A DNA stretch of 34,335 nucleotides. Source: Gemmatimonadales bacterium (GTDB taxonomy: Bacteria; Gemmatimonadota; Gemmatimonadetes; Gemmatimonadales; GWC2-71-9). The stretch covers positions 1 to 34,335 of the forward strand of contig JAUYMC010000332.1 in the NCBI GenBank assembly GCA_030699545.1, written 5' to 3'. Of the stretch, positions 10,381-34,335 are shown one piece after another. The notes beneath the pieces were generated by a model. The model was not told the DNA's origin and searched no databases. It worked only from the letters and a program-made list of their open reading frames with translations. The translations under genes were made by a program, and so were the position numbers. How positions within the stretch are numbered: position 1 is the first letter of the stretch; each line of letters opens with the position of its first letter.

Positions 10381-10938
10381 ATGCTCGGCTACGACGCGCC
10401 CCGCTGGCACGCGCTCCTGAACGACCTTCCCGCCGCCTTGCTGCTCGTCGCGGTGCTGTTCGATCTCAGCGCGGCCGCCTGGAAACGCGAATCGCTCCGC
10501 TGGGCCGGCATCTGGACGTTGTGGGCGGGAGTCATCGGCGGGTGGGCGGCCGTGATCAGCGGCAAGCTGGCCGAAGAGGCGATCGATCACGGCGAGGCGA
10601 TTCACGCGATCATGGAGCGGCACGAGCAGATGGCGCTCTTGACGATGATCCTCTTCACCGTGATCCTCGGTTGGAAGATGCTGCGCCGTTTCGCGATGCC
10701 GGCGCAGGAGGAGGCGATCACCCGCTTCCTCGGCGTTGTCGGGGTGGTGGGCCTGATCTGGGTGGGCAGCCTGGGGGGGAAGCTTGTCTTCGAGAACGCG
10801 GCGGGGATTCCCAACGAGCGGCTGAAGGCGGAGCTGATCAATCGCGGCGTCCTGACGTCGGACACGACGGCGCCCGCGGACACGTCCAAGGCCGGCGGGC
10901 ATCAGCACGCGCCGGACACGCCACCGCATGAACACTGA
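10381..10938 (+). CDS. DUF2231-like membrane protein
   Basis: This 185-residue protein begins two bases after the dehydrogenase stop. It opens with a RWHALLNDLPAALLLVAVLFD segment typical of DUF2231 proteins, where a histidine in the first membrane helix is conserved. Four hydrophobic helices are visible (about 12-32, 42-60, 80-98 and 115-135). A soluble tail is rich in histidine (HQHAPDTPPHEH at the end), which might bind metal. The function of the family is unknown. It sits last in the acyl-CoA operon, and its end overlaps a possible upstream start of the next gene. Confidence 0.75.
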   Translation: MLGYDAPRWHALLNDLPAALLLVAVLFDLSAAAWKRESLRWAGIWTLWAGVIGGWAAVISGKLAEEAIDHGEAIHAIMERHEQMALLTMILFTVILGWKMLRRFAMPAQEEAITRFLGVVGVVGLIWVGSLGGKLVFENAAGIPNERLKAELINRGVLTSDTTAPADTSKAGGHQHAPDTPPHEH

Positions 10939-11012
10939 CGGCCGGATAGCCGGACGGTCAGACGGTCGACTGATGTCATGTCAGGCCGTCAGGGCGTCAG
11001 GCCGTCTGGCCG
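10937..11012. repeat. Tandem 8-base repeats (TCAGGCCG x4) with an inverted related block
   Basis: From 10981 to 11012 there are four octamers: TCAGGCCG, TCAGGGCG, TCAGGCCG, TCTGGCCG. Just upstream, 10951-10970 holds related octamers in the opposite orientation (CGGACGGT, CAGACGGT). The block lies across the start region and signal peptide of a lipoprotein gene. Because 8 is not a multiple of 3, any change in copy number shifts that gene's frame. Confidence 0.85.
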
Positions 11013-11413
11013 TCGTGCTGTTGGTTGCGTGCACACCAGCGACGACGCGTCCTCCGTTCACGCCGTTCCCCGAGAGCCTCCGCGCCATCCTCAACGCGCC
11101 ACCGGCGCGGGTCGTCGAGGAGGCGCGTGCGTGGCTGGTCGCGGACAGCGTCGCCGTGCGGTTCGCGAGCCCGCGCGATGCGTTCCTGGAGACCGCCGAG
11201 CTGGCCGGCGCGGTGACGCTGCGGGTCTGGGCGGATCCGGATGTGCCCGGCAAGGCGCGGGTGGCGATCGAGACGGTCTACCGCCCCATGGACGATCCCT
11301 CGCGAGAGGCGCGGGACCTCGAGCGCGCGGTGCCCGCCGGCTCGGATGGACAACGGCTGGCCGACCGGTTGATGGCGGCGTTGGTGGAGAAGTTTGGCAT
11401 GACGAGGTACTGA
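10973..11413 (+). CDS. Small lipoprotein of unknown function
   Basis: From ATG 10973 the protein has 146 residues; ATG 10928 in the same frame would add 15 residues read from repeat DNA. The N-terminus ends in a lipobox, LVAC, with C20 as the lipidated cysteine, so the product should be a membrane-anchored lipoprotein. The mature part has no recognisable domain. It contains a beta-rich middle (AVTLRVWADPDVPGKARVAIETVYRP) and a C-terminal helix. The whole signal peptide is encoded by octamer repeats. The gene converges on the DUF116 gene, with the two stop codons one base apart. Confidence 0.65.
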   Translation: MSCQAVRASGRLAVVLLVACTPATTRPPFTPFPESLRAILNAPPARVVEEARAWLVADSVAVRFASPRDAFLETAELAGAVTLRVWADPDVPGKARVAIETVYRPMDDPSREARDLERAVPAGSDGQRLADRLMAALVEKFGMTRY

Positions 11414-34090: not shown

Positions 34091-34335
34091 ATGGACCGCC
34101 GAGCGTTCCTCGCCATCGGCGCCGCCGCCGCTCTCCATCCGCGACGGCCCGTCGGCCCGTTGGCCCGTCCCGCTGTCGTGTTTGTTTTTCTTCGCGGCGG
34201 CGCCGACGGTTTGTGTTTCGTGGTTCCTCTTGGCGACGCGCGATACTATCGCGCGCGCCCGCACTGCGACGTTCCCCCGCGCCACGTGATAGACCTCGAC
34301 GGATTCTTCGGGCTGCATTCCGCTCTGGCGCCGCT
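34091..34335 (+). CDS. DUF1501-family exported protein, N-terminal part (partial)
   Basis: The frame starts at ATG 34091 and runs out of the window, so only about 81 residues are seen. The twin-arginine start DRRAFLAIGAAAAL resembles a Tat signal, and the next strand VFVFLRGGADGL, with VVPLGDARYYRARP, is the DUF1501 hallmark of this alkaline-phosphatase-like exported family. A matching DUF1800 neighbour usually lies beside such genes but would be outside the window. The signal region includes three 8-base repeats (34146-34169). Confidence 0.82.
   Translation, partial: MDRRAFLAIGAAAALHPRRPVGPLARPAVVFVFLRGGADGLCFVVPLGDARYYRARPHCDVPPRHVIDLDGFFGLHSALAP
34146..34169. repeat. Three tandem 8-base repeats (GGCCCGTC/T)
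   Basis: GGCCCGTC, GGCCCGTT and GGCCCGTC lie head to tail inside the signal-peptide codons of the DUF1501 gene. The unit resembles a rotated form of the TCAGGCCG octamer at 10981-11012. A copy-number change would shift the frame. Confidence 0.75.

Follow-up and report, generated by a model that had tools for sequence, protein, structure and literature searches.

The closest precedent for the repeats described here appears to be a group of paired sites in Geobacter metallireducens, each built from four octanucleotides, which on comparison of the sequences would be the same kind of thing written in other letters. In that organism 48 aligned class 1 'predicted global regulator binding sites' are composed of four tandem octanucleotides and occur as opposite-strand pairs (PMC2700814). 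Their unit is GTTGCTYN, with a free last base, the distance within pairs is variable and the outer repeats are poorly conserved; 49 elements of four heptanucleotides are also described, within and between genes, and IS elements are said to lie at a fixed distance (PMC2700814). Their function is given as unknown, the authors' guess being IHF/HU binding, and the passages that deal with these sites say nothing on conservation in orthologues or on signal peptides (PMC2700814). The arrays that we report share with the sites so described the four tandem octanucleotides, the single free base and the opposite-strand pairing at variable distance. They belong to another phylum and have a different consensus (GRCCGTCN), and are thus analogous to the Geobacter sites but not of the same sequence family.

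Rickettsia palindromic elements are in-frame repeats at tolerated sites of unrelated proteins, RPE-1 being longer than the arrays considered here, and MetJ binds cooperatively to 8-bp met boxes, which are direct repeats. The Rickettsia elements, which are mentioned in two of the sources used (PMC6649704; PMC3733652), reportedly lose the identity of their repeats with time (PMC6649704); the in-frame placement is alike, but the letters of the arrays are kept. For BldC, cooperative head-to-tail binding of 9-bp direct repeats has been solved, with a four-repeat site binding four subunits (PMC5859096). The direct-repeat layout of the BldC and MetJ operators resembles that of the arrays, whereas the sequences differ. 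REP/BIME and CGTC-tagged repeats are, as described, likewise short, dispersed, often found as inverted pairs and sometimes located inside genes, but a REP arm is a single hairpin (PMC3733652), while an array arm consists of four direct octamers.

The window, by which we mean the whole stretch of 34,335 nucleotides that was analysed, comprises the whole of contig C66 of a 3.16 Mb draft genome (402 contigs, 93.9% complete). It contains the following features.

10928–11413, plus strand: small ORF starting over a pair of arms; translation from ATG 10973 gives MSCQAVRASGRLAVVLLVACTP, which by eye resembles a lipoprotein
10937–10967, minus strand: left arm of a divergent pair, with minus-strand units GACCGTC, GACCGTC, GGCTATC and GGCCGTC (direct sequence reading)
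10984–11014, plus strand: right arm of the same pair, with units GGCCGTC, GGGCGTC, GGCCGTC and GGCCGTC
34091–34335, plus strand: 5' part of a DUF1501-like ORF whose product begins with a Tat-like signal, from ATG 34091, running off the contig end (homologue alignment)
34146–34169, plus strand: array as first read, GGCCCGTC GGCCCGTT GGCCCGTC (sequence read and Tandem Repeats Finder)
34147–34177, plus strand: the same array in the family register, with units GCCCGTC, GCCCGTT, GCCCGTC and CGCTGTC, which have 1, 2, 1 and 2 mismatches to GRCCGTC; a probably degenerate member

The three octamers noted near 34146 by the sequence-only reading are present and exceed what shuffled sequence gives. Tandem Repeats Finder reports a period-8 array at 34145–34169 with 3.1 copies and a score of 43. 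Lag-8 matches of at least 14/16 occur at two places in the whole window, this array and 10980, compared with a mean of 0.05 and a maximum of one per shuffle in 40 Markov-3 shuffles. Four-unit GRCCGTC matches with up to six mismatches number five in the window, overlapping registers being counted, compared with 1, 0, 0, 0, 0, 0, 0 and 0 in eight shuffles. The 34145–34169 array is real and improbable by chance.

The same reading had placed this array in the signal region of a DUF1501 protein, and the family was borne out through a homologue, whereas the array lies behind a Tat-like start at the signal/mature junction, outside the hydrophobic core, and the ORF is cut by the contig end. The 81 residues from ATG 34091 have no Pfam match, and the fragment aligns at 51% with a protein of G002, a member of the same genus, that is DUF1501 (PF07394, E 7.6e-35). 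The array encodes RPVGPLARP directly after the start MDRRAFLAIGAAAALHP, which was assigned as Tat-like by eye. Homologues in nine genomes of the genus have 45–52% identity, lower than the 66–81% at which RumA and an IDH/IPMDH protein find their best matches within the genus (a 45% IDH match in G005 was set aside as another family member), and so divergent paralogy or transfer may explain the copy in the window. At the same DUF1501 junction a canonical array encoding RPTVRPSDRP or a near variant is found in G002, G004 and, in another genus, G019, while no array of at least three units was detected there in the other seven members of the genus. It is for this reason that we regard, with moderate confidence, the array in the window, GCCCGTCG GCCCGTTG GCCCGTCC CGCTGTC in the family register, as a degenerate and probably worn family member. 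The arms near 10980 are separated by 16 bp (10968–10983). The left arm was not listed by the automatic scan because of two mismatches in its second unit from the left. No Pfam family was found for the small ORF, and the gene caller starts at 11015, so that 10937–11014 may be leader instead of coding sequence.

The sequence-only reading had also proposed a genome-wide repeat, and this is well supported: both arrays in the window fit a family that is spread over the genome with the 31-bp consensus (GRCCGTCN)4. Three exact copies of GGCCCGTN in tandem occur only twice in the genome. With up to three mismatches, three tandem copies of GGCCGTCN give 160 matches (90 forward and 70 reverse), a four-unit array counting as two overlapping matches, compared with eight (three forward and five reverse) for the reversed pattern; the 34146 array is absent among the 100 of these 160 matches that were listed. 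Three exact GRCCGTCN units are present in 17 of 61 genomes. These comprise all ten searched genomes of the genus, our own included, with 51 matches each in G004 and G008, and seven of 27 genomes from other genera of the family; none was found among 24 genomes from two other families of the order. With three GRCCGYCN units, 18 of 150 genomes of the phylum have matches, 17 of them among the 36 of the family and one, with a single match, outside it; among the 17, G118 deserves little weight, having four matches against three for the control. In a collection of 84,980 species, each represented by a single genome, two units followed by a spacer and two inverted units occur in 16 stretches, 15 of which lie in five Gemmatimonadetes MAGs. 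The sole match elsewhere is in Bifidobacterium leontopitheci (L125).

Dozens of copies per genome are found in some Gemmatimonadota from soil and groundwater. The arrays recur in five further MAGs (AG16, AG30, AG34, AG40 and NC_groundwater_1452), and this recurrence, together with the in-frame placement, rules out an assembly artefact. In a groundwater MAG (JACQVB loci L121, L122, L128 and L132–L136) we note that unit position 2 is mostly A and that the free base tends to differ between left and right arms. Relatives also carry period-8 arrays of other consensus, such as GACCGCCN and GACGGACN; among distant relatives we noted GACGGACN (L258, G042), GGCGGYCN (L236 and L259, G050) and GACCGCCN (L108, G014), and judging by sequence these are possible dialects. 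Among the matches listed from the open PMC literature there is no description of these arrays for Gemmatimonadota; a chromosome study of the phylum maps repeats of at least 80 bp (PMC11237797).

The anatomy of the arrays was established from 104 distinct examples in loci of three same-genus genomes (our own, G008 and G004). Since pattern matching supplied most of the loci, arrays far from the consensus are under-represented. Four units are present in 79 of the 104, three in 22 and five in three. The edges are sharp: in the 78 four-unit arrays whose flanks are complete, the letters where a fifth unit would stand, before or after the array, are at background level. The layout of four tandem octanucleotides with a free position 8 therefore holds for 79/104 arrays. 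In 293 interior units, position 2 is G in 214, A in 68, C in eight and T in three, and position 8 is C in 180, G in 57, A in 42 and T in 14; every other position is at least 94% one base, a figure helped by the detection rule, which allows at most one mismatch per unit. Under that rule the arrays with one mismatch number 19, 9, 13 and 31 of 78 for units 1 to 4, respectively, which forms a gradient among the units.

Many arrays are solo, without a partner. A divergent-pair pattern had been used to fetch the loci of 14 of the 37 close pairs (no more than 120 bp apart). The other 23, which include three from other genera (L105–L107), comprise 18 divergent, three ++ and two -- pairs and no convergent pair. 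The arms of divergent close pairs are 11–52 bp apart, and the spacers are mutually unrelated and, inside genes, form part of the reading frame. Facing units agree at position 2 in 79 of 117 cases (55.2 expected; species differ in that base) and at position 8 in 23 of 85 (34.2 expected). Selection for a hairpin is not supported, the free position 8 being non-complementary between arms. Neighbouring units are more alike than shuffled ones, at position 8 (165/303 compared with 121.6) and at position 2 (330/466 compared with 219.4), although the shuffle mixes species; some past duplication of units within arrays is therefore likely.

Comparison of orthologues indicates what is retained. Overlapping arrays were compared between orthologues 45 times, a locus contributing several comparisons; the orientation agrees in 38 of these, and in 37 of the 38 the phase agrees as well. 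The remaining seven, at four loci (RumA, an amidohydrolase, IDH/IPMDH and L151/L172), are flipped. We note that in different species the same protein loop carries opposite arrays with near-identical ends, in L074 (our own RumA), L233, L220 and L221, in L001/L175 and in L151/L172; at RumA and other loci it is as if the array had been flipped in place. Several orthologues have no array and turnover is high. In stretches fetched regardless of arrays, four of five orthologous arrays are retained, there being only five such cases.

To assess constraint, third bases were compared in the 37 in-phase comparisons at four-fold degenerate codons for the same amino acid. Fixed unit positions are identical at 127 of 139 sites and free positions at 14 of 23, while flanking four-fold sites are identical at 1987 of 4066. 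Codon-matched flanks predict 0.513, which rules out codon preference as the source of the identity at fixed positions, and a simulation of neutral change under the same detection rule, in which both arrays had to be detectable, gives 0.57. The excess over both values shows that the constraint acts on nucleotides: the six fixed positions of each unit are held at that level.

These observations bear on the slippage-born origin that the sequence-only reading had offered beside a mobile one. By slippage a single host octamer would expand in tandem, and three added units, 24 bp, would keep the frame. Such a microsatellite might be recognized in the alikeness of neighbouring units, in the RumA gene, where G001 has one unit, GACGGTCG, and G004 has four, a difference of 24 bp, and in the three to nine units seen in other genera. 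Within the genus, however, the fixed number of units, four in 79/104, the sharp edges, found also outside called genes, and the phase common to 37 of 38 comparisons speak against slippage as a mechanism still at work; the variation falls mostly at positions 2 and 8, and neither the nucleotide-level constraint nor the lack of convergent pairs fits. We consider this origin improbable. Still more so is the idea that the arrays are DNA uptake sequences, which would label self DNA for transformation and owe their spread to preferential uptake, like the dialects known from Neisseriaceae. Maintenance at the nucleotide level in tolerant coding positions and genus-specific variants are what that explanation would give, but uptake sequences have hundreds to thousands of copies per genome compared with only tens here, and a 31-bp motif of four units in divergent pairs is unlike them.

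Genes were assigned with a home-made gene caller, and signal-like genes with a crude home-made signal-peptide rule. By these means 80 of the 104 arrays lie inside genes and 24 have no assignment to a called gene. Beginnings are concentrated in the first 120 nt, with 29 of the 80 genic arrays compared with 8.8 expected, the other 51 lying further in; two arrays end in the last 30 nt, compared with 2.2 expected. Signal-like genes hold 17 of these 29 N-terminal arrays: eight on the plus strand and two on the minus strand in the c-region, five minus and one plus in the n-region and one minus in the h-region. Examples of such N-termini are MKRPDGRTARWPILAALTLLAVRPSGRLAAQ (first codon GTG) and MAGRADGLTVCRWLLGVLAAVWPSDRPAAQ. 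A preference for signal peptides, as had been suggested, is thus partly borne out, at gene beginnings, but is not significant overall: signal-like genes account for 25 of 77 genic arrays with a complete 5' end, a gene with two arrays being counted twice, compared with 105 of 417 sampled genes (Fisher p 0.20). Arrays also occur in genes of usually cytosolic enzymes, and the 51 arrays further in and the 24 without a called gene likewise limit the preference.

The gene stretches occupied are ones that vary between orthologues, namely N-termini, the n- and c-regions of signal peptides, loops and C-termini; other arrays lie in intergenic DNA. A Pfam search of 30 array proteins identified aconitase, isocitrate/isopropylmalate dehydrogenase, phosphoglycerate mutase, thiolase, ATP synthase gamma, PheT, DNA polymerase III alpha, YidC, lipoyl ligase and others, with no family at E 1e-6 for one of the 30 (L029). 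The usually cytosolic carriers are aconitase, thiolase, isocitrate/isopropylmalate dehydrogenase, PheT and lipoyl ligase. The array of ATP synthase gamma aligns to an unlike stretch of the best solved chain (3oaa_G) with no net insertion, and that of the IPMDH-like protein aligns where the best solved chain (3flk_A) has gaps.

In our view these data are best read, with a probability of about 0.48, as 31-bp sites (GRCCGTCN)4 for a putative oligomerizing nucleic-acid-binding protein, their retention depending on tolerance by the host protein. We infer the recognition step from array form and constraint: a reader protein with an 8-bp repeat is suggested by the fixed length, the polarity and the pairing, by the constraint inside coding sequence and by the unchanged form of arrays that lie outside genes. 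The putative protein would assemble head to tail on DNA (or, less likely, RNA) with one protomer per 8 bp, and the letters would be kept by the cell or by the site's own way of spreading. Selection on the protein would spare a site only if the VRPSGRPAV or GRPDGRTAG peptide that it encodes is harmless. Signal peptides would suit divergent pairs because they offer two tolerant segments, the n- and c-regions, about 30 nt apart. Points against this binding-site reading are the high turnover, the flips, the likeness of neighbouring units, which fits past duplication, the three to nine units in two other genera, where arrays often lie outside called genes, and the association with Y1 transposases considered below. 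The broader proposal of a chromosome-wide binding-site code running through core-enzyme genes, with lineage dialects and a putative oligomerizing reader of sites and divergent pairs, is possible and we put it forward tentatively.

Four units per array is not universal. In 20 regions of G081 and G013 the arrays have three to nine units. In G081, 16 of 23 arrays are not assigned to genes, although the calls in both genomes used the codon statistics of our own genome and may miss genes, and six of seven close pairs are divergent. Two such pairs between convergent genes (L302:1401-1523 and L305:1439-1558) have predicted RNA folds of -68.7 and -78.4 kcal/mol, respectively, and on these models could be terminators there. 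G081 has 59 matches, whereas the three other listed members of genus g14 have none and may use another consensus. Such patchy numbers, together with the flips in place and the link to Y1 genes, still allow a mobile origin. On that view a selfish element of the REP/BIME or Rickettsia palindromic type would have been copied genome-wide as two inverted arms; solo arms would be what is left of such pairs, and copies inside genes would persist only in frame and in harmless loops. The absence of convergent pairs and the 24-bp RumA difference between G004 and G001 accord with this, as does the position of six of 14 viewed places in G081 between convergent genes, described as a usual place for REPs (PMC3733652).

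Y1 transposase hits are commoner in carriers of arrays, in 15 of 17 compared with 14 of 44 other genomes (Fisher p 0.0001). Within the family the figures are 15/17 and 10/20 (p 0.017), and 7/8 and 10/20 when the genus is counted once (p 0.10); shared ancestry confounds all these comparisons. However, a scan of the surroundings of Y1 transposase genes, 20 stretches from ten genomes with 74,031 bases in all, detected no array of GRCCGYC units, and arrays and Y1 hits do not always coincide: G006 has eight array matches and no Y1 hit, and G047 has five Y1 hits and no array match. Five Y1 genes that were examined (L315, L316, L319, L322 and L313, from G008, G002, G004 and our own genome) are each flanked by imperfect inverted repeats with arms of 31–53 nt, for example around TAAAGAGTGGGCCC in L322, that are unrelated to the octamers. 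Judging by this arrangement, these genes and their flanking repeats probably form RAYT/REP-like units of their own. The unrelated, in-frame spacers, the shared phase and nucleotide-level retention of orthologous arrays and the non-complementary position 8 also argue against mobility, and on balance we regard a mobile element as possible but less likely than the binding-site reading.

Short DNA sites inside conserved proteins are thus themselves conserved at the nucleotide level, whichever way they are oriented and in several frames, and codon choice does not account for this. If the binding-site reading is correct, certain peptide stretches of aconitase, ATP synthase gamma and PheT are there on account of a DNA site and not of the protein, and the data suggest that RPSGRPAV-like stretches in array-bearing Gemmatimonadota proteins are DNA-driven and are not protein features. 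Should the binding protein be found, it would explain a class of repeats also reported in Geobacter and would show that a demand at the level of DNA shapes loops and signal peptides of core proteins.
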